This document shows positions 4,720-60,441 of a DNA stretch of 64,000 nucleotides, piece by piece (within the stretch, counting starts at the first letter, position 1; every line of letters starts with the position of its first letter). Source of the stretch: Thecaphora thlaspeos (taxonomy: Eukaryota; Basidiomycota; Ustilaginomycetes; Urocystidales; Glomosporiaceae); contig UWYS01000007.1 in assembly GCA_900291925.1 (NCBI GenBank), positions 124,001 through 188,000 of the forward strand, written 5' to 3'. The notes beneath the pieces are model-generated. The model searched no databases. It had not been told where the DNA came from and was given only the letters and a program-made list of their open reading frames with translations. Position numbers and translations under genes: made by a program.

Positions 4720-5612
4720 GCGGATGGTCGGTAGGAGCACGGCGCTCCAGGGTTGCTCGAGTGCCGATAGCGGCAAAGCGCCAACTAACTTGATTTTTTC
4801 TATTTCCGATGCTACCTCTCTCTACATCTCGCTATCTGCGTCCCTGTTGCGGCGACGGACAGCCGCGATTAAGCCGCTCGTTGTTTTGTTTGTCTAGGCG
4901 TCGCCGCTTGTTGTGACGCTCAATCGCCTTCGTTTTGCCTCGACGTCGAGTTTTGTTGTTCTCCTTATCTTGTCTGCATCGACGAAATGTCGCCTCTTTG
5001 TGGTGGCTGCTTGGGCTGCGCTCGAGGGGGCGCGGAAGAGGGTTGGAGTGGCGCAACCGGCTTTGCGTGCCGAGTTGGCGTGCCGTTCCGAGGCGCCTGG
5101 CCTATTTGCCGTCCTTTAAGCCGGCGGGGCAGCGCGGCTAAAGGGCGGACCGAGACCGATCGGGTGAGCAGATGAGAAAGCTAAGGCGAAATTTTGGATT
5201 ATTCCCGCGGCGGCGTCCAACACGGCGAGCGAGCGAGCGAGGGAAGAATGTTTAGGCGCCGCCCCCCGATGCTGCCTCATCGTCTCTGCCGCTAGGGTTC
5301 AAGTTCCACCTCCTCCACCACCTCTCTCTCTCTCTCTTCTACCGACACACATCCCCTACAGTACGCCCACCAAGCTGCTTCCCTCGCTTTCCCTCTCTTC
5401 TTAGCCTCCTTCCTCCATACTCCCTCACCGCCAGTCTGCTGCTCATCACTCCTCTTGACCTTTCGCTTCCCTTCCACCACCTGCTTTTCTCCCTCCCCTC
5501 TTGCCTGTATGCCCCGCCGCCCCTGGTAGACGAAACATCTCAACCACCGCATCCATCCTATCATCCGGCAGGGCATCTGCAGCCACATCAACGCTTCTCA
5601 ATAACCCCATCG
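4720..5612. other. intergenic, pyrimidine-rich leader of MFS gene
   Basis: No gene is visible. The right half (about 5300-5480) is strongly C/T-rich, as expected for the promoter and 5' leader of the transporter gene that follows. Confidence 0.5.
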
Positions 5613-17954: not shown

Positions 17955-18350
17955 CGTCGCAGTAGGCCGAGGAGGCGGTGGTGGTGGTGGTGGTGGTGGC
18001 AGAGAAAGGGCTTCAGAGTACAGAGTGTGTGTGGAGGTGACGAGAAAAAGGCCGGCCAGCTCTAAGGGCGGGCGAGGGTCTGTGCTCGAGCGAGCGAGCG
18101 TGCGGCCAGCGTGACTCGGACGGGAGAGAAGGCCAGAGGGCGGGAGAGAGAGAGAGAGAGAGGAGAGCTGTGCTTTTTGGAAGGAAATCGAGGCGCGCTG
18201 CCTGCTGGCGGCGACATTTCCACCACCTTTCTCTCCCCTCGTCACCACCCACCACCCACCACACCCACACATCCTCCCCCTGACTCATCGGCCAACCAAG
18301 CCAAGCCAAGCCAAGCCAAGCCGTCTCAGTCGGCCCTCGCCCACCAGTGC
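17955..18350. promoter_or_regulatory. shared divergent promoter VPS33 / cysteinyl-tRNA synthetase
   Basis: 396 bp between two divergent start codons. It holds a (GGT) run at about 17970-18000, a (GA) run at 18144-18162 and a pentamer array of CCAAG at 18296-18322. No TATA box is evident. Confidence 0.55.
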
Positions 18351-21117
18351 ATGTCTCTGCGCAAATCTACCACTTCGACCCTCTCCACCCTGACTCGCTC
18401 CTGGTCCTACCGCACTCTCACTTCGTCTCGCCCTGCCCCCCACGTCTTACCATCCCCCTTCCGCTACCTCAGCCTACGCAGCACACACCACCACCACCGC
18501 ACCTGCGCAGCACTCAACATGGCCTCAACACCAACAGCACCACCACCAGCTACGCCAGCGGCGCCATCCTCGTCCACTCCCGCCTCCAAGGTCTCCCAGC
18601 CAGAGTGGCAGACACCTACAAAAGCCATCCAAGAGCCACAGCTCAAGGTCTACAATAGCCTCACGCGCACAAAGACGCCCTTCATACCCGTACACGGCCG
18701 CTCCGTCACATGGTACAACTGTGGCCCCACCGTGTACGATGCCAGCCACATGGGCCACGCCAGAAACTACGTCACCCAGGACATCATCCGCAGGATCCTC
18801 CGCGACTACCTCGCATACGACGTCCACTTTGTCATGAACATCACAGATATCGACGACAAGATCATCGTGCGCGCAAGGCAGTCCCACCTCTTAAAGACGT
18901 TCCGCGCGCAGCACCCGCACCTCACGCCACCCCTCCTCCAGACCGTCCAGGAGGCCTGGTCCGCCTACTTCGCAAAGAACCTCGAGCAGTTTGCACCGCC
19001 CCTTCCGCCCCAGGAGCAGCACGGCGGCATGGTCGCAGGGGCAGAGCGCGCACGCGCGGGCGAGGCCGGCTTCGAAGAGGTCGCACGCCTCAGGCACGAC
19101 GCCGCCTGGCTCAAGCAGGCATCGCACAGGGAGCCCAAGTTCCAGATGTGGTTCACCGCTCTGGAAAGGTCGAGAAGCGCCCAGATCGCAGCGGCCATGG
19201 CACTGGGCGCCGGTGATGCCTCGGCTGAGCAGGCGCGGCAGCTCATTGACGCATCAGAGGACGTCCTCAGCAGCCACCTCGACAAGGCGTCGGGCCACAG
19301 CGTCACTGACCCCGCCATCTTCCGCGACCTCGCCGCCTTCTGGGAGGCCGAGTTCTTCAACGACATGAAGCGCCTCCACGTCGAGCCCCCCACCACCCTC
19401 ACCCGCGTCAGCGAGTACGTTCCCGAGATTGTCGCCTTCGTCGAACGCATCGTTGCCAATGGCTACGGCTACGCCGAGGGCGCCGACGACGCCAAGAAGA
19501 ACGTCTGGTTTGACACACGCGCATTCGACGGCGCCAAGGCCGGCGCCGGCGCGGACTTTTGCCATAGCTATGCCAAGCTCCAGCCGTGGAGCAAGGGCAA
19601 CAAGGAGCTGCTGGAAGAGGGCGAGGGCTCGCTCTCGACGTCGGCCGCCGCAACGGTTGGCAAGCGCGCCGCCTCAGACTTTGCCCTGTGGAAGTCGTCG
19701 AAGCCTGGCGAGCCCGCCTGGCCATCGCCGTGGGGGCCCGGCCGCCCCGGCTGGCACATCGAATGCTCGGTCATGGCGAGCGAGGTGCTCGGGACTACGA
19801 TGGACGTCCACTCGGGCGGCGTCGACCTCATGTTCCCGCACCACGATAACGAGATCGCCCAGAGTGAGGCGCACCACGAGTGCGGCCAGTGGGTCAACTA
19901 CTTCCTCCACACGGGACACCTCCACATCGAGGGCCTCAAAATGTCCAAATCGCTCAAGAACTTCATCTCGATCGACGAGGCGCTCGAGCGCTTCACGGCG
20001 CGCCAGCTGCGCATGAGCTTCCTGCTCCAGACGTGGTCGTCGCGCATGGACTTTAAGCAGAGCGCGCTCGGCGAAGTCAAGAACGCCGAGAGCACGTTCA
20101 ACAACTTCTTTGCCGGTGTTCGCGCCAAGGCCTCGGAGCACCGGGCACGCGGACTCGCCTTCAGCGACGGCCAGCACCACTACGACGCGAGCGAAAAGGC
20201 GCTGATGGCGTCGCTCGAAGAGGCACAGCGTGCGTTCCGCGAGGCGATGTGCGACTCGTTCGACACGCCGAGGGGGATGGACGTGCTGCTCGACATCGTC
20301 GGCAAGGCCAACATCTACGAAAAGGGCCAGAAGGATCGGCGGGCCGAGGTGAATGTCGGTGTGCTCGAGGCCGTCGCGCGCTACGTTGGCGACATGCTCA
20401 AGATGCTCGGGCTCGGCGAAGGTGCCGCGGCCGACGACCAGTTGGGATGGGGTGACGCCGAATCGGCGGGGAGCGGTGGCGGCGCGGCGAACCACGATGA
20501 GGTACTGATGCCGTATCTGCGCGTGCTCGGTTCGTTTCGCGACAACCTGCGCCAGCTCGCGAGGAGCGGCGCCTCGGCCGCCGAGATCCTCAAGCTTGCC
20601 GACTCGCTGCGCGACAACGACCTGGTCGACCTTGGTGTCGCGCTTGAGGACCAGGAGGGTGAGTGGCAGCAGCCTGTTCCCTAATGAGGCGACCGACTGA
20701 CCGACTGTCTGACCACGGCCTGCCTGCCCTTTCTCATCTGTTTTATTACTCGCACACATAGACGGCAGGGCGCTCGTCAAGCTCGTCCCCGCCGTGCAGC
20801 TGCAAGCCGCCAAGGCGGAGAGGGAACAGCTGGCCGCCGACAAGCAAGCGCGCAAAGCAGCCGCGGCAGAGCAGGCGCGGCTGAAACGCATCGAGACGCT
20901 GGAAAAGGGACGGGTTGCGCCCGAGCAGCTCTTCCGACCGCCGCATGTAAAAGAGGGCGATTTTACCGAGTGGGACGAACGTGGTCTCCCCACCAAAGAT
21001 GGCGCCGGGAGCGAACTGGCCAAGAAGAAGAGGAAGAACCTGGAAAAGGATTGGAATAAGCAGGTCAAGTTGCACAAGGAGTTCCTGGATGCGAGGGAGA
21101 AGGGTGAAGTGCAGTAG
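18351..21117 (+). CDS. cysteinyl-tRNA synthetase, probable cytosolic and mitochondrial isoforms
   Basis: Exons 18351-20658 and 20762-21117 give 887 residues from the first ATG, or 831 from the in-frame ATG at 18519. It is a class I synthetase charging tRNA-Cys: NCGPTVYD supplies a zinc-ligand Cys, HMGH (residues 133-136) is the HIGH motif, IECS and PHHDNE carry further zinc ligands, and KMSKS starts at residue 530. Exon 2 encodes the eukaryotic lysine-rich C-terminal extension. The intron (GTGAGT...CATAG, 103 nt) is in phase and avoids an immediate stop. The first 56 residues are rich in Ser, Arg, Thr and Leu without acids, like a mitochondrial presequence. The first ATG has T at -3 (weak), the second has A at -3 and G at +4 (strong), and no ATG lies between, so leaky scanning could yield both isoforms. 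Confidence 0.95.
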
Positions 21118-21225: not shown

Positions 21226-23204
21226 TCAAGCGACGATACGGATTTTGGACAACTTGACGAGATCCTCTGGCGTTATAGCGGCTACCTGATCTATGAGAGC
21301 TGGAATGAAAGATCCCGGACCGTAGACATCTTGTCTGGCAGCTGCCTTTTCCGAAGCTATCGTCATGGAAAGTAGACTGTTGAGGTGGGAATAATGCAAA
21401 AGAGGAGGGAGTCAAGGGGGGATCGCATCGAACATCGAAAGCGGTGTGGCAGGATAAGGGGAGGGAGATACGTACGCAGTCAAAGCACCAACCAATAGAT
21501 CCTCATCGTGAGTAACCATGCTCTGTCCCAACCCCGTTGGTTTATCCTGTCGATCTGCTTTGCATGCAGAAAGTCCAACGGCCAACATGACGCCCAATGC
21601 ACATCCACTCCCTGTAATCTTTCCTAGTAGTTCATGTCCATTGTCGCAAAGAACCACCCTTTCTCCATCCGATAGGTAGTCAGTCTTACCACTCAGCAAA
21701 ACTAGACATCTCTCTTTCATCGCGAGACGACGGACAAGTGAGATCGGATCGGAAAGTGTTCCCGTACCCGAATCGACACCGCGGGAAGTCACTTCTGAGG
21801 AACCCGAGATGGAGGATAGTTCGCCTGCGTTTCCCTTGAGGAGGGTCACTTGCGTGTGGTTGAGAATCTCTGCGTAGGGGTGAGGGAGAAGGCAGGGATG
21901 AGTCAGGTCGCGTCTTCGACGGGAATGGAGACGTGCGAGGAAGAAGAGGGACGAGACGAACCGTTGACGACCTCTTTTCTGAACTTTGTCGCTCCGCATC
22001 CAACTGGATCCAGCACGACCGGTTTACCACCGCGGTTAGCAGCGTTGCCAGCCACTTTCATACCTTCCCTACTCGGCGGTCCTATGGTACCGATGTTCAA
22101 CACCAGCCCTCCCACGGCTCCGCTCAGTTCTTCCGCCTCTTTTGCCTCGTGGCTCATGATAGGGCTGGCGGAGAATGCAAGTGCGATGTTGGCAGAGAGT
22201 GTCGAGGAGACATGCGAGGTAATGGTCTGGATCAGAGGTGGACCGGTAGGGAGAGTGCGAAGTCGCCCCAGCAAGGTGGCGCAACGAGTGACGTAGGATG
22301 CTGAGTCGATCGGTGGAGAGATGGTAGGGGCGAAGGGGGCGGAAAGGTCGTTGGGACGGAGGGAGAGGGAGTGGAACAGACGTCGTTTAAAAGTCGCGAC
22401 AATCTCGCCCAGCTCCCTCGCTGCCACATCCGAATCGCGCCGCGCGACGATGGCAGAGATGACCGCTATACCATCCGGTGCGCTGCCTCTCGCCGTAGTG
22501 GCGCCGAACAGCGTGCGCGCTGCCGTCTGTTGGTTGAGACCGCCGATCAAGACACACGGCATCCTCCTTGACCCTTGTGCGTCGCTGTCGAGCACTTCGA
22601 CGATTTCTCTAGCTCCCCTCGTTCCGATGAGCTTGTCAGCTGTGATGTCCTTTTTCGATGCGGTGCCGTAGCATGGACCGACACCGGCGTAGTCTGCCGA
22701 AGATTGCTTGGCGGCGAGGGCCTGTGGGATGGACTTGACAGAGATGCCGAGGATTCGGTCTGGACCGAGGAGACGACGTGCTTGGGATATGGGAATGTCT
22801 TGTTGTCCGATGTGAAGACCGACGCGACGCGGGAGTGAGAGGGCGACGGCGAGATTGTCGTTGATCAACATTGTCACGCCGTACTGCAGGGGGAAAAGCG
22901 GTGGTAAGGAGTTGAGTCAGCACAGCGCCTCGACCATGAAGCTGAGGAGTGGGAGAGGGCAGAGGGCGGGACGTACACGATCGCAGATCTCGAGCGACCG
23001 CCTGGCAACCTCGAGGAACTCTGCGGTCTCTGCGTCCTTTTCGCGGATCTGTAGCATGGTGACGTGGCCATCTTTGAGGCAGAGTTCGAGGCTTTGGTAA
23101 TAATCGACGCCAGGTGGGAGCAGCTCGCGCCCCGTGACGAGGTAGAGAGAATAGTCGAGCTTGGACTTGTCGAGAGCGGGATCATCGGAGGTGTGTGATG
23201 ACAT
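21226..23204 (-). CDS. THI6: THI6, bifunctional thiamine-phosphate synthase / hydroxyethylthiazole kinase
   Basis: Four exons (23204-22977, 22883-21962, 21869-21476, 21376-21226) give 564 residues. It phosphorylates hydroxyethylthiazole and joins it with HMP-pyrophosphate to make thiamine monophosphate. The N-terminal ThiE half shows MLQIREKD, LINDNLAVAL, GLHIGQQD, GVGPCYGT and LIGGLNQ. The C-terminal ThiM half shows LNIGTIGP, VVLDPVGCGAT, LLKGNAGEL and GKITGSGCALG, and ends VYGPGSFIPALID. Each splice restores a conserved motif: ICDR/YGVTMLIND, VVN/EILNH and ALTA/LSMTIASE. The stop lies 108 bp from that of the convergent cysteinyl-tRNA synthetase, so the 3' UTRs probably overlap. A dispersed repeat begins 118 bp upstream of the start codon. 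I saw no thiamine riboswitch. Confidence 0.94.
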
Positions 23205-38869: not shown

Positions 38870-39712
38870 GGTGTCGCTGGTCGGGCCTTGTGGTGATGAG
38901 TCGGGTGGAGGAGATGGCTGCGTGGGCGATGGGAGAGAAGGAGAAGAGGAGGCTGCCTGCTAGGCCTATCGTCGGCTTTTTTCTTTTCTTTTCTTTTCTT
39001 TTCGCGAGAGCCAGGTGAAGAAATGGAAAGCGCGGAACGGAACTCGGGCGTCTGGCGTGCCGTGCGGGTGGGCACACTCTACACTCACGGGCCAGACCGT
39101 GGACGAGACCAACACGGACCGAGCGCGGAGGGTGGCAGGTGCGCAGGGTGGGGAGAGCCGGGGCAGGCAGACGGGCCAGTCCCGCACAACGCTGCGAGCC
39201 GCCTCATCAGGCGCTTGTCACGTAAGACAAAGGCAAGGCAAGGCAGGGCAAGGCAGGGCAAGGGAGCCGGACAAAGCCGAGGCAAGGCAAGCGCTGCTGT
39301 AAGTTAGCCGGAAGACAAGCGGGACCCTCGCTCCGCCCCCCCGCTGCTCTGCGTCTCCTTCCCCCGTTCTCTCTTCTCTTCTCTCTTGCATCACCTCGTC
39401 ACCGCGAGAGCCCGGTCGTGACCCGCCCTCGCCCTCGCCCTCATCGTCGCCCTGCCTCACCTTCAGCACCACCATCCATCCCCCCTGCTCCGACCCGGCT
39501 GCACCCGTCGTCCGCTCCTGCCCTGCCCTGCCCCGCCACGAGCCGCGCCTACGCCCACACTCCCTCCCGTCCCCGCTGTCAGAGCTCGTGCTGCTCTACC
39601 ACTCTTCCCCTCTCTTCCTCCGACCCCGATCCCATTGCTTTAGCGCCACTCTGCGGCCGTCTAGACAGCTCTTACACGACACGACACGACACGACCAAAC
39701 CCGCCCGTCGCG
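38870..39712. promoter_or_regulatory. divergent promoter nudC / PFK-2/FBPase-2
   Basis: 843 bp with several simple repeats: TTTTC units at about 38977-39003, AAGGC/AGGGC units at 39231-39264, a long C-rich stretch (about 39400-39650), and an ACACG array immediately before the start codon (about 39676-39700). Confidence 0.5.
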
Positions 39713-41917
39713 ATGTCGACACCTGCCCATGACACCACACTGCCGGCCGGCGAGAGCTCGGCCGCTCACCAACGCTCCGAGTCAAACCATTCGGACAGGC
39801 CCGGTCGCAATCACCACCGACACCCCAGCGGAGGTCCCGGCGTAGGGCCAGGAACCGCCTCGACCGCAGAAGCCTCCCAGACGAGCGCACAGCGCGCCGC
39901 GCAAAAGGCTTTGGAGCAAAAAGTCGCCGCACACGCAGCCCTCTCGCGCTCCTCGTCCGTCAAGAGCGCCGTCTTCTCCACCGCTTCGCCCAGACACCTC
40001 TCGCTCTCGTCGCATGGCCACTCCCGCCCCGCCCCATTCCCCCAGGTCTCCAACAGGGAGGCCTTCGACATCGCCGTGGCCTCGTCCAACCTCGCACAGT
40101 CCTCAGACGGTCTCCAGGCGCTCCTCCGAGACCATCCGGAGCTTGTGTCGAGCAGCTTGGCCGCCGCTGCAGGGCCGCAGCTCACCAGCTCGCAGATGAG
40201 CGCCACTGGCGGCTTCTCGACGCGCTCGGGGAGCAGGGGGGGCAGCAAGTCGGCCAGCATGCCCAGCACGCCCTTTGAGCGATCGGATCAGCACAACGAC
40301 GCTGGCTACCTCGCCATGGGCGGATCCTTGGCCAATTCTATCTACCGCGAACGCGCCACTCCTTCGGCCGATGCAGCGACCACCGGCACCGTCCTCCACG
40401 GCGCCCCCGAGGTGGGCGAGGGCGGTCACTCGGGCGGCGGCAGCAGCGGTCTCGGCGCCGCCCTCGGCCTCGGACAGGGGATGCGCACCGGCCTCACCAC
40501 GCCCAACCTCGGCGCCGCCGGGGCCAAGCCTGACTACTCGGGCGCCAAGATCGTCGTCTGTATGGTCGGCCTGCCGGCGAGGGGCAAGAGCTACGTCGCC
40601 AACCGCGTGCTCAAGTACCTACGATGGCTCGAGTACGACGTCAAGGTCTTCAACGTCGGCCAGCTGCGCCGCGCGCTTGCACGGACCAAGCTGCGGACGT
40701 CGGGCGTCAAGGAGGACCATACCCACAACTTTTTCGACCCGTCCAACCCGTCGGCCTACAAGCTGCGATCCCAGATGGCCGAGGAGTGCCTCGAGCAGCT
40801 CATCGGCTGGCTGAAGCGCGGCGGCAACGTCGGCATCCACGACGCCACAAACAGCACAAAAGCCCGGCGCAAGGAGATCGCTGACCGGATTGCAAAGGAG
40901 CCTGATCTCAAGCTCGTCTTCCTCGAGTCTATTTGCACTGATCCCGCGGTCATCGAGAAGAACATTGCCGTCAAGGTCAGCAGCGGTGATCCCGATTACG
41001 CCGGCATGACGCCCAAGGCGGCCAAGGCCGACTTCCTCGCGCGCATCAAGCACTACGAAGACGGCTACGAGCCCGTCAACGCCGACAGCACCGAGGCCCA
41101 CTACAGCTACGTCAAGGTGACCGACGTCGGCAAGTCGGTCGTGATCAACAAGACGCAGGGCTACCTCGAGTCGCGCATCGCCTTCTATCTGATGAACCTC
41201 CACCTGACGCCGCGCAACATCTTCTTCTCGCGGCACGGAGAGTCGCAGTTCAACGTCGAGGGCAAGATTGGCGGCGACTCGAACCTCTCGGAGCGCGGGA
41301 TGAAGTACGCCGAGGCGCTGCCGCAGCTGATCAAGGACAACATCGGCGACGCCCCGCTGACTGTGTGGCACAGTACGCTGAAGAGGACCGGACAGACGGC
41401 CTCGCAGCTGCCGTACCCGAAGCTGGCGTGGAAGTCGCTCGACGAGCTCGACGCCGGCGTGTGTGACGCGATGACCTACGAGGAGATCGAACAGTACTAC
41501 CCAGAGGACTACGCCAACCGCGACGAGGACAAGTTCAACTACCGATACCGCGGCGGAGAGTCGTACCGCGACGTCGTAGTCCGCCTCGAGCCGATCATCA
41601 TGGAGCTCGAGAGGCAGGAGAACATCCTCATCATCGGCCACCAGGCCATCATCCGATGCCTTTACGCTTACTTCCACGCGCTGAGCCAAGAGGATCTGCC
41701 GTACATCAAGATCCCCCTACACACGGTGATTCAGCTGACGCCAAAGGCGTACGGATGTGACGAGAAGCGCTTCCAGCTGCCCATCGAGGCGGTCGACACC
41801 CACCGCCCACGGCCGCCAAAGCCCGACATCGCCGACGATTTGCCGCCGAGTCCGCCGCTGGACCCGTTCGAGAGCGCCGCTACAAGCCAGCCGCCGAGCC
41901 AGGTTCGACGTGAGTAG
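39713..41917 (+). CDS. 6-phosphofructo-2-kinase / fructose-2,6-bisphosphatase
   Basis: Intronless, 734 residues. It makes and degrades fructose-2,6-bisphosphate, the switch between glycolysis and gluconeogenesis. Residues 1-275 are Ser/Gly-rich and disordered. The kinase domain carries the P-loop GLPARGKS from residue 286, then VFNVGQLRR, DHTHNFFDPSN and GIHDATNSTKARR. The phosphatase domain has the phospho-His motif RHGES from residue 507, LDELDAGVCDAMTYEEIE, and the second His in IIGHQAIIR (about residue 643). Both sets of catalytic residues are present, so it looks bifunctional. The long Ser-rich N-terminus is a plausible kinase target, as in yeast Pfk26/27. Confidence 0.95.
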   Translation: MSTPAHDTTLPAGESSAAHQRSESNHSDRPGRNHHRHPSGGPGVGPGTASTAEASQTSAQRAAQKALEQKVAAHAALSRSSSVKSAVFSTASPRHLSLSSHGHSRPAPFPQVSNREAFDIAVASSNLAQSSDGLQALLRDHPELVSSSLAAAAGPQLTSSQMSATGGFSTRSGSRGGSKSASMPSTPFERSDQHNDAGYLAMGGSLANSIYRERATPSADAATTGTVLHGAPEVGEGGHSGGGSSGLGAALGLGQGMRTGLTTPNLGAAGAKPDYSGAKIVVCMVGLPARGKSYVANRVLKYLRWLEYDVKVFNVGQLRRALARTKLRTSGVKEDHTHNFFDPSNPSAYKLRSQMAEECLEQLIGWLKRGGNVGIHDATNSTKARRKEIADRIAKEPDLKLVFLESICTDPAVIEKNIAVKVSSGDPDYAGMTPKAAKADFLARIKHYEDGYEPVNADSTEAHYSYVKVTDVGKSVVINKTQGYLESRIAFYLMNLHLTPRNIFFSRHGESQFNVEGKIGGDSNLSERGMKYAEALPQLIKDNIGDAPLTVWHSTLKRTGQTASQLPYPKLAWKSLDELDAGVCDAMTYEEIEQYYPEDYANRDEDKFNYRYRGGESYRDVVVRLEPIIMELERQENILIIGHQAIIRCLYAYFHALSQEDLPYIKIPLHTVIQLTPKAYGCDEKRFQLPIEAVDTHRPRPPKPDIADDLPPSPPLDPFESAATSQPPSQVRRE

Positions 41918-43262
41918 AGGAGGTGCGGCCAAAGTCCGCTGTGCTATGCTCGCGTTGATGTCACGCCCACGCGACCAATTGGCCGACCGAACGACGCTTC
42001 CACGAGGCTCGGGAGGAGCCCCCCGCTGGTCGCTTTACCTGGTTTCTCGTTCCGGCCCACGTTGCTTCCCTGCGGATGTTGTAGCTCCCGGGCAATCGGA
42101 GTAGGGGAAGCATCGCTGCTACCTGACGTCTTGCATCGATTAGACTCGCCGAGCAAGAACATTTCCGAGGTGCCTTTGAGTCGCCACAGATGCGGAAACG
42201 ACGGCGGAGTGCGAAGCAGACGCGGGAGGTACTGTAGGAGGACGACACGTCGAGACCGACCGAGGTTGGCCATCATAGCGATGGCCGGCGGGCCGGCGGG
42301 CCAAGGTAGGGGCTGTTGCTCGGTAGGAAACTCGGACAAACACCGGCACCGGCGGTGAAGAGGGCAGCGGCGGGCGAATGAGCCCGCTGCCTTGCTGGTT
42401 TCGGCGGTACGGTGCATGCTAAGATTTAATTTTATCACAGCTCAATCTCATTTACAGGTGCTCCTGCACGGCGACCAGGACAGTCAAGCTGGCAAGATGT
42501 TGGAGCGATGCGTGTGTCTGGGTAACTTAGGTGACGGTGTGCCGAGTGTGGGTCGATTTAGACAGGGAGAGGTGGTATGCAGTCAGAGTTGGCCCGCGCG
42601 TGTTGGATGAGAATTCGGTCGGGGAAACGGCCAACGCGGTCGCTTGGTCTCGGCCGCCGTCGTCGTCATCGTCGTCGTCGTCGTCGGTGGTGGGGTGGGG
42701 TTTGGAGGAAGAGGTTTGGGTGTTGATGTTTGCGCTGCGGTCTCTGCGAATGTGTCAGCGACACGCACGGTGACGAAGGATGCGACTTAGGCGGGGGGGA
42801 GGGACCCTTTTTCTCGTGGCTTCACGAGCGGAATGCTGGCAAAGGGTTCACGCATCGATCGAACGCTGGCTGATGGAGGCTGGCCCCGCCGAGAAGCCGT
42901 CCAAGGCCCGTCTGACCTTGACCGACGTACCAGATCGCTCGCTCCCTCGCTTGCCATTTCAAGCAGAAAGGACGACGGGCACGCGCACCCTGGTCGATGC
43001 CGCTGCCGCTGCCGCTGCCGAGCGCCGCCATTACGCATTCGTCGTCCTCGCAGACAGCGGTGGCGCAGGGTAGGGTATAAGAGTCGTCTGGTCCTGTCCC
43101 ACCAACTGACGACTTCCGTTCCTCAAGCTTGCTCCTCCCTCCCCATTCGCCCGTAGAAGCGCCAACAGGCCGGTACCCCAGCCCCTACCTTCTCGCTACC
43201 ACCAAGTAAGCAGCAGCTGCTGCTCAGGCCGCCACCCGCAACCCCCTCTCCTTCCAAGCATC
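41918..43262. other. intergenic, promoter of rhodopsin gene
   Basis: 1.3 kb without a supported gene. It contains a GTC triplet run at about 42655-42690 and GCTGCC repeats at about 43002-43020. Confidence 0.45.
43076..43081 (+). promoter_or_regulatory. TATA-like box of rhodopsin gene
   Basis: TATAAG, 182 bp before the start codon at 43263. Confidence 0.45.
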
Positions 43263-44467
43263 ATGGACGCGCTCGCCACCCTCGCCCGGCGCAACAATGC
43301 GCTCGCGCTCCACCCCCCCGTCGCCGACATCGACATCACCACTGGCGGCTCGAGCTGGCTGTGGGCCGTCTTTTCGGTCATGGCCGCTACGGGCCTCGGC
43401 TGCATGATCTGGGGCATGAAGATCAGCCGCGGTGAGCGTACCTTCCACTACCTGAGCGCCGCCATCCTCGCTACGGCGTCGATCGCCTACTTCTCCATGG
43501 CCTCGGACCTCGGCGCCACGCCGGTCCGCGTCGAGTTCCTTCGCGACTACGGTCTGCGTCCCGACGGTACCTACCCGACGCGCTCCATCTGGTACGCCCG
43601 CTACATCGACTGGACCATCACCACCCCGCTGCTGCTGCTCGAACTGCTCCTCGTCTCCGGCCTCCCGCTCTCGACCATCTTTGCCACCATCTTCTTTGAC
43701 CTGGTCATGATCATCACCGGTCTCATCGGTGCCCTGGTGCAGAGCAGCTACAAGTGGGGCTTCTTCACGTTCGGATGCGTCGCCATGTTCTATGTCTTTT
43801 GGGTCATCTGGGTGCCCGGCCTCAAGTCGGCCAGCCACCTCGGCGCCGACTTCCGCAAGTCCTACCTCGTCTCGGCCTCGATCCTCTGCACCCTCTGGTT
43901 CGTCTACCCCATCGCATGGGGTCTCGCTGACGGGTGAGTGACACATGCGCGCGTGCAGACACGCTGCACCGTGATGGCCGCAAAGGTATCGGTAGCCGCT
44001 ACGTCGACGACGACTAACCTGGACGCATCTCGTTTCTCTTTTCTTTTCCCCTCGGGGAGCTTTTTTTCTTTTTCTTTTTTCCAACGCTCAGTGGCAACTA
44101 CCTCTCGCCCACCAAGGAGATGATCATGTACGGAGTTCTCGACCTGCTGGCCAAGCCGGTGTTTGCGCTTGTGCACCTGTTCTCGCTGCGTCGCTGCGAC
44201 TACTCTTCGCTTCACCTGCGTTCGGGCAAGTTCTCGGACTACGACACCGACCTGGCCGGACCTACGCCTCGTTCGGTCGAGAGTGCCAAGAAGATGGAGG
44301 CCAACGGCATCCACACCGGTGTCATCCCCGGCCACAACGCCAACACCACCACCACCGGTACCACCGACCCGCACGGTATCATTGGTCACGAGAACTTTAA
44401 CAACGTTCACGGTAACTCGGGTCTCGAGGCTGCCCCCGCCATGAGGCAGACCCAGGCTACGCAGTAA
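43263..44467 (+). CDS. fungal microbial rhodopsin, probable light-driven proton pump
   Basis: Exons 43263-43933 and 44092-44467 give 348 residues. Seven-helix retinal protein of the fungal opsin group. Helix C reads RYIDWTITTPLLLLE: Asp116 corresponds to the bacteriorhodopsin proton acceptor Asp85 and Glu127 to the donor Asp96. Helix G, in exon 2, reads YGVLDLLAKPVF with Lys245 as the retinal Schiff-base lysine. Acceptor and donor carboxylates together favour pumping over sensing. The intron (GTGAGT, long T tract, CTCAG, 158 nt) is phase 2 and joins ADG to GNYLSP, as in other fungal rhodopsins. The C-terminal 90 residues are polar, with Asn/Thr/Gly repeats. Pumping itself is inferred, not shown. 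Confidence 0.93.
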
Positions 44468-45246: not shown

Positions 45247-48200
45247 TTACCTAGACAAAGACGACGTCTGCTGCTGCTTCTGTGTCGAAGTGCGACGACG
45301 CTCCGCAACCGTGGCATCCAGCTGTACTGCCCTCTTCCACGTCTCGACCGTCAGCGTCTTTTCGCCCATCGAAATGGCTAGCAGCCTGCAGCGCGCGCAA
45401 AGGAAAGAGCAAGAGCGAGTGACAAGCACGTCCAGTCAGCAAGGAAACTCATTCGCGAAACGGTACCACATCAGAATGACTCACCGGACAAGCGCCATGC
45501 GTCTCAACAGATCCTCCTGTCCCAGCTCGTTCTTATCATTCTTCCTCGCCTCTACAAACTCCTTCTGGATGTGCTCGCTAATCTCTTCCGGGATCTTGAA
45601 CTCTTTCGCCGTCTCGAGCGTCCGCGCAGAGAGGAGGAACCTGCGCCATCCTTGCAACTTCGTCTCCTCTTCCTCCTCCTTTGTCGCTTCCACTTCGCCG
45701 TAAAAGGCAAAGGCGTCCGTTGCGGTCGAGTCGAGAGGACACTGGATGTCAAAGGGTAGGAAGGACTTGCCCTGGCTGAGCAGGAGGATGTTGAGGTCTG
45801 TCTCGAACTCGAACTCCGAGTAGGGGAAAATGTAGGGTAGCTTGTGCGTCTCCAGGACCGAGGAGAGGGATTTGATGTTGCGAATGCCTGGTGCAACGAC
45901 GAGGCGAAGCGAGAAAAGCAGGCGAACGTCAGACCGAGGCAACAAGAACACTGTATAGCACAGCATCACATCACATCGCACCACAGAGCGACAACGCACC
46001 ATTCTCCTTGAGCTCTCCCTCTTTCATCGTTCCTTCGTTGACGACCAGCATGGTCCCGTTGACGAGCTGCAACCTTCCGGCCTCCAGCCCCGTCTCGCCT
46101 CCTGAGCTGCGCGGGCTGAAGCTCTTCTTGCAATGGTTGAGGTCCCTGAGGTCCATCGAGATGTCGACGACCGAGGGAAGCAGGTTCGAGAGAAGCTGCG
46201 AGATCTTTGTCGACACTGCGCCTGCTGCGGGCGGTAGCGGGAAGCTGGAAAGGTTGACCGTCAGAGCGCCGAGGGCGAGGCTGGCCCGTCGCGAGTGGCT
46301 GTGTCGATGCCAGAGGACGAGGTGGTCAAGACGTGACAAGCAGTCGCCTCCGTCAGCAATCAAGCTGGCGACATGGAATCCATGGCACACTCCACAACGA
46401 ACTCACATCCGGGCAACAGCGGCAAGCAAGACTAGCTCCGCGGCCACCTTGTCGCCACCCAGGCCGGTCGCGAGGTAATCGATCAGAGCAGACCTCTCAG
46501 CCTGGTCGCAAGGGCCAGACGGCCCCGCTGCGTTCAGGTCCATCGTGTCGAAAAAGAGGGCGTGAACGCAGGGAACAACAGGCGCGGAGCTCGCACCAGC
46601 TGGCCCTGTCGATCCCGTCTCCTGCCACTCGGCGTGAAAAAGGCTGTTGAGAATAGTCGAACGGGCTGTTGTCAGTCAGACGGGAACGGCCAAATAACGG
46701 TGACAGGGCAAGGGTCGTCCTTACTCACGAGGCGGTGTCGAGGATGCCGACTATTTCAACCATCTCGGTGGTCTTTAGCTTCTCGGCCGCGTCAACATCG
46801 TAGAACTTCGGGCGGCGAGCGAAAACAAAGCAGCGAATCTCCTGAGTCAGCTCAGCTGCTGCTCAACATCGCTGTTGAACCCTGTCGCGCGACCCGCCAC
46901 TCACCTTGACCAGACCGCCGACGTGTGACTCCTCAGGCAACGGAGCCTTCTGTGGCAAGGGGTCGTCGTACGCAAGAGCCTCGGAAGACGACTCAGACGT
47001 GGTGGCCTTCTCGGCCTGCGAGCTGCTGGCAGCTGGCTCGTCGCCCTTGTCCTGGACGCTGCTGCGCAACTCCGCCATGGCGGCCTCGATGCCGACCTCG
47101 AGCTCCCGCTTCATGCCGGCCATGGCCTCGTCACGGGTCCCGGGACGCTTGCCGAAGCAGTCTGTGCCCACGCGCACATTGTCGCTTCCGACCATGACCG
47201 CTACCTCGAGGTCGGCCGACATGCCCATGCTGAGCTCGAGGCCACCGGTGGGATCGTCGCCGTCTCCCTGACCAGCGGTCAGGAGCTGCGAGTAAGCCTC
47301 CTTGATGTGATCGGCCTTGCTTTCCTTGACCTCTGAGGAGGAGCGGAGCAGCGCGACGAGATTCTTGCGCGTCTGGATCAGCCTTTCGAAGTCCGGGTTG
47401 GCGTTGACGAGGTCGTTGACGCCCTTGGCCTCGTCCGCGGCGGAGGTGTTGGCGCTGTTGGCGGCGGCGCCGATGGTCATAACGCCCTTGAGGCGGAGGC
47501 TGGGGCATTTCGTGATGACGTGGACGGCGAGGTCCAGGAGCGGGCGGGAGGCGTCGTCAACGTTGTCGGCGTCGATGGGCGGCTGTCCGCTCTTTGCGTC
47601 TTCGCCGCTGGTGTTGACCTGCAGGTAGACCTGTAGCGGCTCGTCGCGCTTGGCTGCGTCGGGCGAGCTGAGCGCCTTTTGGAGAACGTTGGCTGCCTTG
47701 ACCGAGTCGAGCGTCTCGAGCAGGTAGAGGTTGGGAATGGAGGCGAGCAGCTTACCCTTGTTGCTCTGGAGACCGCCGACAAAGTGCCAGCGGATCTCTC
47801 GGGGCAAGACCTTGGCCTTGTCCACCAGCTCCTGGACGTAGTTCTCGCCGAAGTGGAGCTGTTTGGCGTGACGGTGTGCGGCAAGGATGGCCGAGGGCGG
47901 GTGGAGCTTGGAGACTGCGACGAGCCGCGGCTCCTTGCCGCTACCGCCGACCTTTTTGCCCTTTTCGACCGCTTCGCGTATCCTCTGCCGCACCTCTTCA
48001 ACCCTCTTTGGCGACTCGAGCTTGTCGAGCAAAGAGGTGGACGCCATCTTGCAGCTTAGCTCGTCGTCGGCCGTAGTACGGTCGCCGCCTCGCGAAGAGG
48101 ATGAGGCGGTGGAGGCGGAGTTTTCCTCGCTCCAGGCCTTGCGAAGCCACCTGCTTCGTCCCGGAACAGAGACGGCGTATACGACAGTCCTCTCGCCGAG

Positions 48201-48602
48201 CTTGGAGTTTTCGAGCTGGTCGAGGTCGTCGGACTCGTTGTGGGCGGCGGCAGTATTCTCTGCGCCAAAGAGGCCGCAGTGTGCCGTCTGGCTGTCGTTG
48301 CTGGAGGCGAGGAAGACCTCTGTGCCGAGCGCGGTGTCTTGTACCATGCACCTCCATCTGACGAGCCTGCCGGGGGTGGATGAGGTGCTACGGTCGTGCT
48401 GCTGGAGGAGGGGCTGTGCTACGGCCTCGGAGAGGAGGGGTACCTTTAAGCGGGCATCGGCGTGGGAAAAGATGGTGCGAAAGTGTTGCTGAACCTGACG
48501 AGCAAAGGCGGCGGGCGACTTGTCGTGAGCTTTTTCGAAGAGGGACTGAATGAGCTCGGATGGCTTGGTGAGAGCGTGGGTGAAGTCGGTGTCGGGGACC
48601 AT
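45247..48602 (-). CDS. MCM-binding protein with an internal PLP-homeostasis (YggS/PROSC) domain
   Basis: Six exons (48602-46905, 46805-46729, 46643-46407, 46298-46000, 45887-45485, 45385-45247) give 950 residues. MCM-binding protein (ETG1 in plants) handles MCM complexes in replication. Residues 1-185 match its N-terminus (VRWRCMVQD; ERTVVYAVSVPG; WLRKAW). Exons 2-6 match its C-terminal half (MVEIVGILDTAS; VPCVHALFFDTMDL; LALGALTVNLSSF; EFETDLNILLLSQGKSFLP; LVRLLAISMGEKTL). Between them, residues about 186-486 are a full YggS/PROSC barrel: RLVAVSKLHP with the PLP lysine (Lys232), LHFGENYVQEL, IRWHFVGGLQSNK, LELSMGMSADLEVA and VRVGTDCFGKR. Exon 1 is open across all of it, and all five splice phases agree. 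An in-frame ATG at 48761 would add a basic, presequence-like leader of 53 residues; the inner domain has its own well-placed ATG at 48047. Confidence 0.86.
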
Positions 48603-48761
48603 GTTGCGGCGGTTGACGTGGGAGCGCCTCGCCTCGCTGGGCGGTGGTGGGAGGTGCGCGAACGGTCGGGCGAGGAGGCGATGAGGGGTGGTTGTGAGGG
48701 CGACGCGTCGGAGTGGTGATGAGAGCAGTGGTAGTGGTGGTGTGGTGAGGGTGCTGTACAT

Positions 48762-51700
48762 GCTCCTGCTGGTGAGGGCGAGGAGGGGATGGTTGAGGCA
48801 AAAGCGTGGTGGCGCCGGTTGGCAAGGGGGATGACGGATGACGGATGATGGATGGCGGATAACGGATAACGGATGACGGTGCTTTGTCGCGCGCTTCTCC
48901 ACTTCTGCGCCGTTGTTCGGAAGCGAGCCTCTGCCAAGCCACAGCCAATGTAACGTAACAATCATAATCCACCCTCCACCGCCAGACAAACAACAAAACA
49001 AAAAAAGACGGCGAAATTCAGAGAAAAATCCAGCCGCTCCCGCGTCCACGCCACGGCGATGACCAACGACCTGTCGCAACGACCAAGCAGCATCCCTGCT
49101 GCATACCTACATCGCAATGTATGATCTCTCTCTCCAATTATACAGGACCCTCTCGCACGACAGAATATTTCCTCCAGTGCCACTACCCGCAGCTTACCCC
49201 ACGGCGCCCACTTGGCCCGCCCGTGTCTCGCCTCTCGAGGCCGGATGACCGATTCCGTCACACACTACCCCACATTTGCGACAATCGCTAGAGGCGATCC
49301 CATGTTTCATCCACGAAAAGCCCCGCCCGGCGAGGGTTGATCTTTGAACCGCTACCCGTGCCGGCTTTCATCGACGCGGACTAACTTGGCCTGGGCCAGC
49401 GCAAGACGATCAAGTTCTTTCTCAGCTCGAGGCGTCTCGACGCGTTGGGCAACGCAGCAACGCAACGACGACACCCTCGCACCAAGGCGGCCTGCACCAC
49501 CTTCTCTTTCGAGCCAAGAGGACCAGCAGCACCATGTCACGCATCCGCTTAGCTCAAACCTGGACGATCCTCGGCGATGGTCCAGAACATGCCTCTGTAT
49601 TGCACTTGTCCACCCCTCTCCTCATTTCTAGAACGTTCAGCCCGTGCGCATCCATCTCTTCGCCCAGAGAAGGACCCATGAGAGTGTATTGTACGCTGTG
49701 AGCTGATGACGACAATGGCAAGTGCCTCTACGTACAGACGCCAGCCGACTTGGGCGACCAACCACGAAAGGCCTCAGTCATGGAACCTTGCATCACGGTC
49801 TCCTCTTGCCCGGATCAAGATACCTGGAAAACGCAACGGAACAGCTCACCGGTCCTGATCTGGCAGCCTGTCGAGGAGTCCAAGGTTTGGTTGTTGCAGA
49901 AAGGACAGAGGGGGTTGCATGGCGACCCATCGCCATCTCCGCTGTTGCTGTACTGTCGTCCTTACATATGCCCATCCCCGGCCCCCCTTCCGCCTTTTCG
50001 TGCCCTCCTTGCTCCGGCTGCGCTCTTGTAAATAGCCGCTGCAAGCCGCGGTGTGACTGTACTGTACCACACTTCATCGCTGCACCGATGTCGTGGGTCA
50101 TCATAGAGCACGGTGGGCATAAGGACGAGTACAGTACTGTAGTAAGTACTGTCAAGCGGTGGAAGCGTCCGCGTGTTGAAGAATAAATCTGATATGTCGC
50201 GACGGACGGGCGGGCGAGCGCCAAGGGTCAGCTCGACGGACGACGTGTCGACACGCCTCCTGTATCGGCGCTAAACCTTGTCAGCTTGCCGCTAAGTTAT
50301 AGCGTGCACCCTTGAGAACGACCTGCCTGTTGTGGAACACCATCTCCACTCGTCGTGGCCGTTCCCTTCCACAGACGGCGTGAAGAAGGCGGCGCGTGTC
50401 CAGAGTGGACCGTCGCGTTGACGACCGCCCCACCTGTCGTCGTCCTGGACAGACGCGCCTCGTTCTCCGTCGAAACGTTTTCGAAGAACCCTCCCCGACT
50501 TCTGCGTCTCAGGACTTTCAGCAACAGCTCCATCTGCATCTTCCTCCAAAGATCCAGGTCTTACCCTTTTCGACGGTCTCGGCCATCTTTCATACGAAGT
50601 CTAGGGTGGGATTTGGTGCTGAGGAGTCGGGACATCGGTCAGCCGTTGTGATCGACCGCCAGATCAACGTCCACGAGAGAGGGCCCCGACGGTACGGTGC
50701 TCCACCACCAGCGAACAACACTTCCACACTAAAGGGCGCGCGCCTGCAGACCAAACAGCGGAGTCCGTAAATTAGAGACACCAACTCGCCGGCAACCAGC
50801 ACGGACAGGAGAGGGAAACAAACAGCATAGAATTGAAGAGAGGTTGCCGAACTTCGGGAGGAGTCGCTGCGAGCTCCCAGCCTAGGATGTAAGTATTGAA
50901 AGGATTGATAGGGAAGCTGCGGTTAGCCAACGACACAACTGATGTAGTCGTCTACTCACAAAGACTAGGTTGAAGTTGTCCAATTATTCTTGTTGCTATT
51001 CCGTGGATAAAGGACGTCTCTGTGGCAGGTTGGGTGTGCAGCACGGACAGCTGTCAAGAGGGTAAAGTAGGTGTTGACTTGAGTCAAGTTGAAGGGAAGC
51101 AAGAAGAGAAGAAGCCAAACCTCTTGGAAGTGGGATGAAGAGATGATGATTTGATGAGGAGAGAGACGTTGACTAAGCCTATGAGTCACTGACTATATAT
51201 ACAACTTGTCGTCCACCCAAGGTGGATCCTGGTACTCGTATAGCGTGGCCTTGCTATACGGAGAGTCAGGACTTTGTTGTCCACAACAGTCAGCTACGGG
51301 CCATACTTGACATCTATCTAAGGGGGAAGACAAAGGGAAGACGTGAGTGGCTACGGAGGGATGCCTTCTGTAGCCAATTGTTGGATTTTGCCGGTTCGGT
51401 CAAACTCGACGCCGACCCGTTGAAGTCCGATGCGTCCCCCTGCATATTGACTCCGGCTCCCGTGTCCCCGACAAGTCTCAACTCCCTTTCTATCGGGGTC
51501 GAGACGTCAGGTACGGGTCAGCGTCGATTCTGCAGGAACCGTTGGCATCCTGCTGTGGTCGTGCATGCTCCAGTGCGTTTAGTTGGAGGAATGTTTCAAC
51601 AGTAAGGGCCCGGCTGGACGAGCGCCGCGTGGTAGCGAGGCACGAGCGCAATGCGCGTGAGAACAAAGAAAGGAGCAAGTACATGACGACGAACGGACTG

Positions 51701-56341: not shown

Positions 56342-59300
56342 ATGCAGACTGCCCATCAGACGAATTGGCCGACCGGAGGAAGACAAGCCCTCTTCCCCTC
56401 GCCCACTTACTCGGAGTCGACCCAGTCGTCCGGTTCGAACCTCTGCACGCCCGACAACAGCAGCATGATGACGCTGCCGCACGACAAGCGCAGCAGGGAA
56501 GCGATCAGTGCCGCCAACGCCGCCTTCTTCTCGGCCACCGAGCGCGACGAGTTCAATGCCGTCTTTGGCAACGCCGGCGCCGGTGAAGCGGATCCGGAGC
56601 AGGGCAAGGGCGATGCCTCGCTCGACTTTGGGGCGATCAACGCCGGCGACTTGGTGGGCATGATCCACAATTCGTCGTTCACGTTCCTCGGGAAGCGCCA
56701 GGCGTCCAACAACACCGGCTCGAGGATGCAGCCGCTGGTGGATGCGGCCAACCGACGTCACAGCATCCAGCCGGTCCTCACGTCGTCTGGGTTGTCGTCG
56801 AGCCTGGTCTTCCCGTCAGCGGGAGCGTCGGGACAGATGGAATTGAGCGGTGGCGGGCCGTCGCACAACGTCACGGTCGGCGGTGCCGGGAGCATGAGCC
56901 TGTCCGCCGAGTCGTCGGGCGCCTGCGGACCATCGTCGTCGGGCTACAGCTTTGCCAACCTTGCGACGCACCAGAGCAATGAATACCTCATGTCGCCTCC
57001 GCGCCTCACGGTGAGCCTGTCGATGCAAGGCACGCCGACGCCGACACCTGCGGGCGCGACGGCGGATGCCTCGTCGGCGGAGGACAATAAGAGGCGGAGG
57101 ACGTCGGAGGTCGAGGCTACGCCGGACCGCAACGCCTCGGCGCATCAGCACATGCTCGGACAGACGCCGTCGCACCTCCAGCAGGCGGGACAGCACCAGC
57201 AGCAGCAGCCGCCGCCCAACTTTAGCCAGTACCAGCAGCACGTGATGCACTCGACGGGGTCGAGCAGCTTCTCGATGGGAGAAAACCAGCAGACGCCGCC
57301 ATCGGCGACTGCGGGAACGCAGTCGGTGCAGAGCAGCGTGTCGTCGATGCGTGTGCGGAAGCTGTCGCTGACGGCGGGGGGAGGAGGAGGAGGCGGGGCA
57401 GGGTCGGGCTCGGAGATTGCCGACCTGACGGCGGAGCTTTCGTTGCCGACGCACTTTGATGCGGACTGTGCGCTGCCAAAAAGCGCGCCGGCCCGAGCGG
57501 CAGGCGACGCGATGCAGCGCGTGCAGAGCCAGTTGAAATCCAACACGCCCAGCAAGCTCTCGCACCCCAACTCAGCCAACGCCACCCAATCCACGCCCAA
57601 CAGCCTCCACGCCAGCGCTGACAAGAACAAGACCCAGGACGTCTGGCCCGACGACGTCGAGGTCGCTTTCTGGGAAGGTGAGCAGCGGCGACAGCCTGCA
57701 CACATACACACGTCCTCGCGAGCTTTCGGCCCCTCTTTGCTCACACTTTTCTCCCTCCCCCATCTCCACCTCGCAATCATCCGACCCGCACCTTGCCCCT
57801 CTCCATCGACCGACCGACCACCCATCCCACCGCCCGCCCGCCCGCAGCACTGCGCCTCATCCCCAAGCTCGGCCGACGCAAGGTGCTCGTCCACGGCAAA
57901 CCGTGCGGACGCAACGAGCTCATCGCCGACTACATCGAGCGCAAGACGAACAAGACGCGCACGCGCAAGCAGGTCTCGAGCCACATCCAGGTGCTTAAGA
58001 ACATCAAGAAGGGCGATTCCGAGTTCCAGCAGCTCATCGCCGAGCCCACGTCCGAAGAAGACTTCTACATCCCCGCTGGCGGCATGATGTACGCCCAGAC
58101 CCTGGCAGGATACGGCTACGGCGGCCTCGGCGGGCCCTACCCGCTGCTCAGCATGGAGAGCGTCGGCCTGATGTCGCCCTACACGCCCGGCATGGGCTCG
58201 CACTCCCTCGCCAGCCCCATCACGCCCGGCGCCCCGCCCATGTCGGCCACCGGTTCCATCACCTCGGCGCTCAACGACCTCCACTTCCCGCACCCGCCCA
58301 ACGCCAAGGACCAGATGGCCAACACGCCCTGCCCCATCCTCCCCGCCAGCTTCTCGATGTGGGTCCACTGCTCCAACAGCGACGACAAGCACGTCTACAC
58401 CAGCCTCGACCGCAGCGCCATGTCGCCCTATGCCAACGGCCAGGGCGCCCTCTCCCGCTTCCCGCTTGACTCGGTGCGCGTCGGCCACTTCCGCTTCCCG
58501 CGCCTCGCCGAGATGTACCACCACATGCCGTGCCAGTTCCTCCACATTCACGTCCCGCTTTCCATCCCGCGCCATGACATCGTGATGCCGCGCTACGACC
58601 ACTTCAGCACGCAGCTCTCTCTCACCAGCGCCCAGGACTTACGCCTCACCTCGGTCACCTCGGTCTACTCGCACGGCAAGCGCGTCCTCTCCCTGGTCGA
58701 GCCGCTCGATGCCCCGCGCCGCGTCTCGGGCCGCGGCGCCCCCGACGGTCCCAGCGCCGCCCCCAGCTCCGTCGCCACCGGCGTCAAAAGCGAGGACGAC
58801 AAGCGAGCGGAGAAGGAGTCGATGGATCACTCTGCCTCTGCCGCCGCCAAGGACGATGCTACCGCCAGCATCAGCCCGGCCACCGCTTCGCCGAGCGAGC
58901 CGCCCTCGCCCGCGACGCCGATGGAGCCGTCCAACAGCTGCGACGGCTCGACGCGTCACCGCTGGTGCCACCAAGCACCCTTTGCGACCGACTTCTGGGC
59001 CGACTTCCTCAGCCGTAACCACCCCGTCAACGTCTACAACGACCGCAATGGCATGCAGTCGTTTGGCAAGGAGCCGAGCGAGCGCGCCGCGCTGGGCATG
59101 GCCGTCTCAGGCGTCACCATCATCCAGGAGCTCGTCGTCGCGTCCGAGGACAGCAGCAGCGGAAACGGCCAGAGGAGCGGTGGTCAGGGCTCGCCGGGCG
59201 AACGCGAGTCGAACCCCAACGGGGGACCGACCCTGCTGCCGGACTCGGGCTCCATGCTCAGCCCGGGAAGCAAGGTCGGCGACGTCGTCCTCGTTATCGC

Positions 59301-60441
59301 CTGGGACCTCGAGTGCGTTGAGGCTCTGGGGACCAACCCCGGCACGCCCACCGTCTCGATGCTGACGGCCAGCACCGGCGCGAGCCCGTCTCCCCTAGGT
59401 CGCCAGGTCGGTCTACCGGCTCCGTTCCATGGCCAGCCCTTCTACGGGATGCAGAACCAGCACCCGGCGGGCATAGCGATGAATGGTCAGCCTCAGCAGC
59501 ACCCGCAGCACCCGCATCACCCGCACCACCACGCGCAAGCGCACGCACACCAGCTACCGCAGTCGTTTCAGATGCAGCAGAGCCATTCGCAGCACGACTT
59601 CCGCTCGATGACGCCGCCCGCTCCGCCGGCACTGATGCAGACGCAGCCGTCGCCACAGCCCAACAATCAGCAGAAGTCGCAGGGACTGCAGCCGCTGCAC
59701 TTTGACGGCTCGATGCCGTTCGGCAACAACGGCGGCAACCACGGCCTCCAGCCGCCTACTCTGCTGTGCAAGCGCGGCCTGTCGGTCAACAAGCCGCTGA
59801 GTGTCTCGATTCCGCCGGCGCCGACCTACCTGAACCCGAACAAGATCCCCAACAGCGCCATGATCAACATGGGCGGTGGCTCGCAGCAGCAGCAGCATTC
59901 GCCGATGCACAGCCCTTCGCCGGCGGCGTGGGGACTGATGCAGCAGCGGGCGTTGTTGACGCCGATCACGCCCAACTTCCAGATGCAGGGAGCCACGCTC
60001 AACGAGCCGCCGCCGATCATGTCGGGCGACGAGGCTAGGCAGCAAAAGGAGCGTCTCGCTCGCCACTGGGCAGCCGAGGCGGCCAACCACGGCGGCACGC
60101 TCAGCTCGCTCCAGTCGCCGCTCGACATGACGTTCGGACCGGGTGTCCACGGTAACGGCGGCGTCCACATGTCGACCACCTCTGCGCTGGGAATGACCGG
60201 TATGCACCTCTCCGTCAGCGGCCAGGATGGCAGCGGCGGGCTACTATCGCCTGCCTCTTTCGACTTTGGCAACAAGGAAGGGGGAGACGCTAGCGTCGGT
60301 GTGGATGGACAGCAGATGATGATGCTCAACGACCAGTCAACACAAGAGTACATCGACGGTCTACTTGCTTCCATCGGCGTCAACCACGGCGGACCTACGG
60401 CGCACGACTTTACGAACGCCACCAATTTCTTCTCTACCTGA
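56342..60441 (+). CDS. TEA/ATTS-domain transcription factor (AbaA/Tec1/TEAD family)
   Basis: Exons 56342-57677 and 57848-60441 give 1309 residues. The TEA DNA-binding domain spans about residues 433-510 and is built across the intron: [12 protein letters not shown] in exon 1, then [33 protein letters not shown] and [14 protein letters not shown] in exon 2. It binds CATTCC/T-type sites and in fungi controls conidiation (AbaA) or filamentation (Tec1). The intron (GTGAGC...CGCAG, 170 nt) is phase 1. The N-terminal 430 residues are Ser/Gln/Gly-rich. A YAP/vestigial-type co-activator region may lie after the TEA domain ([34 protein letters not shown]). The C-terminus is rich in Gln, His and Met. 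A pyrimidine-rich leader of about 1 kb precedes it. Confidence 0.93.

Follow-up and report, generated by a model that had tools for sequence, protein, structure and literature searches.

We examined a 64,000-nt stretch of the genome of the smut fungus Thecaphora thlaspeos (GenBank assembly GCA_900291925.1, contig UWYS01000007.1, positions 124,001 to 188,000 of the forward strand), referred to below as the window. Its minus strand carries a six-exon gene (48602-45247, from the ATG at 48602 to the stop at 45247) with a predicted product of 950 amino acids and 103.0 kDa. This product joins MCM-binding protein (MCMBP) to PROSC (YggS, PLPBP), a protein that handles pyridoxal phosphate (PLP), with the second set inside the first. 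An initial annotation had described the gene as an in-frame fusion, and at the level of the genomic sequence our analysis confirms that the fusion is real.

Gene model and domain architecture

Exon 1 (46905-48602, donor at 46904) holds 566 codons in a single frame, running from the MCMBP N-terminal half through a first linker, the whole PROSC/YggS barrel and a second linker to resumed MCMBP sequence. It lies within a 747-codon stop-to-stop frame (minus strand, 46863-49106), and 566 open codons would arise in random sequence of the same base composition with a probability of about 2e-8. As initially annotated, this single uninterrupted exon contains the MCMBP N-terminus, a full barrel and its PLP lysine; the open frame, Pfam and NCBIfam matches and an alignment to 18 orthologues all agree. 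The annotated continuation of the MCMBP C-terminal half on five further minus-strand exons was also borne out: exon 2 (46729-46805, corrected acceptor at 46806; orthologues and splice sites), exon 3 (46407-46643; gene model and splice sites), exons 4 and 5 (46000-46298 and 45485-45887; gene model, splice sites and a genome match to the MCM_bind model) and exon 6, which includes the stop codon (45247-45385; gene model and splice sites). A longer exon 2 beginning at 46841, giving a protein of 962 residues, was ruled out because its 12 extra residues are absent from the orthologues, so that exon 2 spans 46805-46729 and the protein 950 residues. G+C content at third codon positions stays between 0.76 and 0.85 all along the gene, so the PROSC insert is not foreign in composition.

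The inserted domain occupies residues 196-512 (47067-48017), as delimited by TIGR00044, the match to yeast YBL036C and identity to Tilletiaria PROSC. It scores 155.3 bits against TIGR00044 (NCBIfam; cut-off 106.25) and 32.9 bits against Ala_racemase_N (Pfam PF01168; cut-off 24.1), matches YBL036C (1b54) at E 8.1e-39 and E. coli YggS at E 2.1e-22, and is 62% identical to the stand-alone Tilletiaria PROSC. Its fold is a type III TIM barrel, and the motifs FGENY, WHFVG, QSNK, LSMGMS and VRVGT-FG are all present. Lys232 (codon 47907-47909) aligns with Lys36 of E. coli YggS, which binds PLP as a Schiff base according to PMC9601805. Since the protein as a whole is not a single-domain chain, we assign the inserted domain alone to the PLPBP/COG0325 family. 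The label "enzyme domain" given to it initially is too strong, as the family has no known enzymatic activity according to PMC9605639. We also considered a self-excising intein and rejected it: no Hint or intein splicing domain was found, and Pfam at E 0.1 returned MCM_bind, Ala_racemase_N and one sub-cut-off match outside the insert.

The host sequence matches MCM_bind (Pfam PF09739) in two stretches, at 312.2 bits against a cut-off of 25.6. Its N-terminal half covers residues 1-155 (48138-48602), on the basis of an MCM_bind genome match (C7:171997-172389, window 47997-48389) and of alignment to stand-alone MCMBP from Ceraceosorus guamensis, C. bombacis, Tilletiaria and Rhodosporidiobolus. This sample is small because a search with the C-terminal half, whose length limit shut out full-length fusions, gave four proteins. 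In these alignments linker 1 (residues 156-195, 48018-48137) is native MCMBP sequence right up to the junction, the place of Met186 included. Linker 2 (residues 513-544, 46971-47066) is weakly conserved by pairwise identity among the fusions, and the resumed MCMBP sequence that follows it (residues 545-566, 46905-46970, YDDPLPQKAPLPEESHVGGLVK) again aligns with stand-alone MCMBP. Mean pairwise identity among 17 full-length fusions is 0.83 in PROSC, 0.47 in linker 1 and 0.30 in linker 2 (residues 513-548), and the linkers vary from 25 to 41 and from 20 to 36 residues, respectively. The insertion does lie within a variable MCMBP linker, as had been proposed. The linker of about 80 codons reported behind the barrel is correct for a barrel that ends near 47140; the alignment extends PROSC to about 47067, leaving a 32-residue linker and the 22 resumed MCMBP residues. 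One MCMBP without PROSC, that of Rhodosporidiobolus ruineniae (P0172, 600 residues), has a C-terminal ribosomal protein S30 (85 bits, residues 537-594), either as a fusion or as a gene-model merger.

One gene could still give two proteins, with PROSC and MCMBP parted by alternative splicing, internal initiation or proteolysis. Met186 (48047, context AAGATGGCG) would offer a start for PROSC, and the linkers, which are of low confidence in a predicted structure of the orthologue P0001, could be cut. Against internal initiation, a methionine between the MCMBP N-terminal part and the PLP lysine is absent from 13 of 19 fusions and sits at scattered positions in the other six; Met186 itself aligns with the Ceraceosorus MCMBP linker. 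We therefore rejected 48047 as a conserved PROSC start. Splicing fares no better: all five introns begin GTGNGT, a pattern matched by none of the four GT dinucleotides in residues 150-200, and no GTRNG occurs in exon 1 upstream of PROSC. By this consensus criterion a nested gene removed as an intron was rejected, and splicing-out of the insert is disfavoured because a consensus donor is absent. Five smut clusters, moreover, apparently encode the whole fusion as one frame. We consider separation into two products improbable.

The fusion appears to be the sole PROSC and the sole MCMBP of this organism, as far as the assembly (20.59 Mb, 32 contigs) and our searches go. No second PROSC was found among the best candidates, which were the ones scored (queries PF01168, TIGR00044 and a stand-alone PROSC), and the MCM_bind query found no second MCMBP; the stand-alone PROSC gene for which the initial annotation advised looking was, on the same terms, not found in the assembly.

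The same insertion in other smut fungi

Using the whole fusion protein as a query, we scored 7989 candidates sharing most words with it and obtained 50 proteins: 18 MCMBP-PROSC, 13 ARMT1-PROSC, 11 twinfilin-like-PROSC, 4 MTHFR-PROSC and 4 others. All 18 MCMBP-PROSC clusters (P0001-P0018) have PROSC at the identical MCMBP site with the same junctions. They include 11 named species: Thecaphora frezii, Kalmanozyma brasiliensis, Ustilago trichophora, U. loliicola, Sporisorium reilianum, S. graminicola, S. scitamineum, Pseudozyma hubeiensis, Testicularia cyperi, Melanopsichium pennsylvanicum and Violaceomyces palustris; U. maydis is not among the named matches. The nearest match is T. frezii, at 68% identity overall and 84% in PROSC. 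Across the clusters both MCMBP parts and PROSC are well conserved, PROSC most of all, the linkers much less. The search that had been suggested for MCMBP proteins with a PROSC domain therefore succeeded, and the fusion is not unique to this genome.

Two of these clusters (P0017 and P0018) end early. In P0017 a single frame holds the MCMBP N-terminal part, PROSC and the linker, and then reaches an apparent intron at the position of intron 1 (LVK-VS). Five others (P0004, P0007, P0012, P0014 and P0016; 951-983 residues) come from a source without gene names and are probably plain reading frames, because several Malassezia proteins from such a source overrun their ARMT1 match at one point into unrelated sequence; the whole fusion would then be intronless in these five.

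An artefact of assembly or annotation is conceivable in that gene-model mergers do occur in this neighbourhood, the Testicularia record P0010 joining an opsin to MCMBP-PROSC. Since 18 clusters from separate records share both this internal insertion and its junctions, an assembly error joining two loci is excluded; in the window, moreover, the insert lies in one open exon. We regard an artefact of either kind as extremely improbable.

Upstream of the canonical start lies a possible in-frame N-terminal extension (48603-48761, minus strand; MYSTLTTPPL...), arginine-rich and presequence-like. Taken by itself it is weak: 513 of 5000 base shuffles were equally arginine-rich and acid-poor, which is no better than base composition, and we rejected a presequence in the window on its own, keeping it as a lead from the relatives. 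Comparable extensions, acid-free and arginine-containing, precede the canonical MVPDT-type start in P0001, P0010, P0012 and P0017; the one in the window has a single acidic residue. To the eye, two twinfilin fusions (P0020 and P0032) and four free PROSC proteins (P0060, P0062, P0063 and P0078) have similar extensions. An upstream start could thus produce a long form that takes PROSC to mitochondria through a presequence, and a short form that keeps MCMBP and PROSC in the nucleus and cytosol. The presence of PLPHP in both cytosol and mitochondria (PMC10463200) fits such dual localisation, which would be compatible with the explanation we favour below. On the other side, besides the shuffles, the N-termini of Tilletia (three rows) and Malassezia (eight rows) show no clear presequence; in the other 14 of 19 fusions the recorded sequence begins with the canonical methionine, which is uninformative. 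Dual localisation is, on these sequences, a possibility we hold tentatively. Several of the extensions in P0020, P0032, P0060, P0062, P0063 and P0078 precede a second methionine, suggesting dual-start PROSC genes.

Other hosts of PROSC and the origin of the fusion

Orthologous PROSC domains have three further hosts: in Malassezia they lie inside the ARMT1/DUF89 catalytic fold, in the Sympodiomycopsis/Jaminaea group they precede the tail of a twinfilin-like protein, and in Tilletia they follow MTHFR, at the C-terminus. For Tilletia, PF01168 does not report PROSC in P0021, whose assignment is based on 57% identity to the fusion protein of the window, while in P0025 it is supported by a match to 1ct5 (E 3.7e-34). 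The matches P0047-P0050 pair PROSC-like sequence with an adenylation/reductase enzyme, a mitochondrial carrier, an acetamidase-formamidase and an SRP54-like protein; they may be gene-model mergers. Free-standing PROSC was found in Exobasidium, Tilletiaria and Ceraceosorus among the best 120 of 7925 proteins. Given this scope and that of the 7989 candidates scored, we make no claim that captures are rarer elsewhere. In the T. thlaspeos genome itself, a second ARMT1-like gene (contig C19, L009 601-3003) has a long low-complexity insertion at a site that differs from the PROSC site of Malassezia.

For 85 PROSC domains, taken from the window and from 84 of 172 fetched proteins, we built a maximum-likelihood tree. 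They comprise 19 from MCMBP fusions with the window included, 16 from ARMT1, 11 from twinfilin-like and 4 from MTHFR fusions, 19 free Ustilaginomycotina domains, labelled as free by length and Pfam, and 16 outgroup domains. The MCMBP (99/91), ARMT1 (100/99) and MTHFR (100/100) domains are each separated from all others by a single branch. The twinfilin-like clade (100/98) includes two rows annotated as partial, P0052 from Microstroma and P0069 from Jaminaea rosea, possibly fragments of fusion proteins. With the root placed by midpoint only, ARMT1 groups with the outgroup (96/83). The fused clades are separated by free PROSC, that of Exobasidium, Tilletiaria and Ceraceosorus among it. Because the hosts are unrelated, each has one clade and free PROSC lies between them, the tree requires at least four insertions in the Ustilaginomycotina.

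Together, these data lead us to consider it probable that the gene yields a single bifunctional product of roughly 103 kDa, in which PROSC is autonomous and the host provides expression and carriage and not a specific functional link. PROSC would fold independently within MCMBP, bind PLP through Lys232 and buffer or deliver it, the role proposed for its free-standing relatives. Both parts of MCMBP would still meet around the insert and handle nascent MCM subunits, with flexible linkers letting both jobs run without communication. As to origin, a single event appears most likely: a PROSC copy, perhaps intronless and cDNA-derived, would have been inserted into MCMBP in an ancestor of the Ustilaginomycetes, and subsequent loss of the free PROSC gene would have locked the pair together.

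A tighter relationship had been suggested, in which the fusion makes a physical connection between vitamin B6 homeostasis and MCM handling; MCMBP would change with PLP occupancy of the barrel, so that MCM2-7 assembly would respond to B6 or amino-acid status. The fusion is retained in 18 of 18 orthologous clusters found, and the insertion falls between MCMBP parts that are required for MCM3 binding in human cells, according to PMC9018068. Set against this, in sister lineages orthologous PROSC rides on ARMT1, a twinfilin-like protein or MTHFR, so that the partner looks interchangeable; the linkers vary in both sequence and length; and PROSC is free in Exobasidium, Tilletiaria and Ceraceosorus. 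At least four insertions into differing hosts argue against an MCM-specific B6 signal and suggest a PROSC barrel that is tethered yet autonomous. We judge a functional coupling unlikely. What stands of the initial interpretation is a whole PROSC barrel in frame within the MCMBP linker; a specific B6-MCM coupling is not supported, nor is the fusion unique.

Several points weigh against the explanation we favour. The predicted structure of P0001 (mean predicted local distance difference test score 69.3, predicted template-modelling score 0.51) is poor outside PROSC; its low-confidence stretches, within residues 123-246 and 577-685, extend into MCMBP on both sides, and the model gives no support for reassembly of MCMBP around the insert. 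On the separate question of an MCM-like fold, Foldseek comparison of this model with MCM chains gave a best E of 9.9e-8, with template-modelling scores by target of 0.29-0.53, mostly 0.3-0.4; confidence in the model's MCMBP regions is middling to low. Stand-alone MCMBP as a query gave no match to a solved structure at E values up to 10, and one further match list, filled by PROSC-like chains, has no bearing on the MCMBP part. The basis for retroposition is the intron-free fused part together with free-PROSC fragments that suggest introns there, and nothing else. The proposal as a whole draws on genomic sequence, from which a single protein product is predicted. Finally, four captures within a single subphylum seem more than chance, and PROSC fusion could have a shared reason. 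PROSC may be an obligate passenger, captured serially in the Ustilaginomycotina and giving up its own locus at least four times for an in-frame position within or next to an unrelated housekeeping protein, in one case within a catalytic fold, with something common to these fungi favouring the fused state; dosage, dual targeting through the host N-terminus or a capture-prone gene may be the cause. We put serial capture for such a common cause forward as conceivable, short of probable.

Genomic context and comparison with known systems

A microbial rhodopsin gene (43110-44467, plus strand; Bac_rhodopsin 110.8 bits in 43110-43937) runs on the strand opposite to the fusion gene and ends beyond that gene's 3′ terminus; with opsin and MCMBP-PROSC joined in the annotation of Testicularia cyperi P0010, the neighbourhood may be conserved. 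Elsewhere in the window, one minus-strand frame (21903-22916) combines thiamine-phosphate synthase and hydroxyethylthiazole kinase (TMP-TENI, HK), a fusion known in fungi. Other frames match MFS_1 (5256-7475), Sec1 (15181-17103), tRNA-synt_1e of the cysteinyl-tRNA synthetase type (18066-20684), 6PF2K with His_Phos_1 (39665-41917) and TEA/ATTS (57682-60441).

We found no published description of an MCMBP-PROSC fusion in titles and abstract openings, with longer result sets covered in part; as far as could be seen, these proteins have been deposited under the name of either half and are undescribed in the literature. Such automatic names can mislead. In Ustilago, Sporisorium, Thecaphora and other smuts, two conserved and separately studied housekeeping functions would share one polypeptide across a fungal class; therefore deletion or tagging of MCMBP in such fungi would also affect B6 homeostasis. 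Repeated capture by unrelated hosts amounts to a natural experiment in moving domains into foreign proteins, and in whether PROSC needs a fixed partner.

With the PLPBP/PROSC/YggS/YBL036C family (COG0325, TIGR00044) the insert has in common the whole barrel, the PLP lysine and the LSMGMS and VRVGT-FG motifs. Whereas the studied members are single-domain chains according to PMC9605639, here PROSC is nested inside another protein. The fusion retains both conserved parts of MCMBP (PF09739), but they are broken by about 317 residues of PROSC. That family includes S. pombe Mcb1 and plant ETG1. The ARMT1 fusions of Malassezia, the MTHFR fusions of Tilletia and the twinfilin-like fusions carry PROSC orthologous to that of the window, in host-specific clades, and differ in the host used and in where PROSC sits within it (in a catalytic fold, at a C-terminus and before a tail, respectively). 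Domain-insertion proteins generally hold a foldable domain in a linker or loop at the host's surface, and MCMBP-PROSC resembles them in having such a domain placed in a host linker. Unlike them, it belongs to a set in which one orthologous domain has entered at least four unrelated hosts within a single fungal subphylum.
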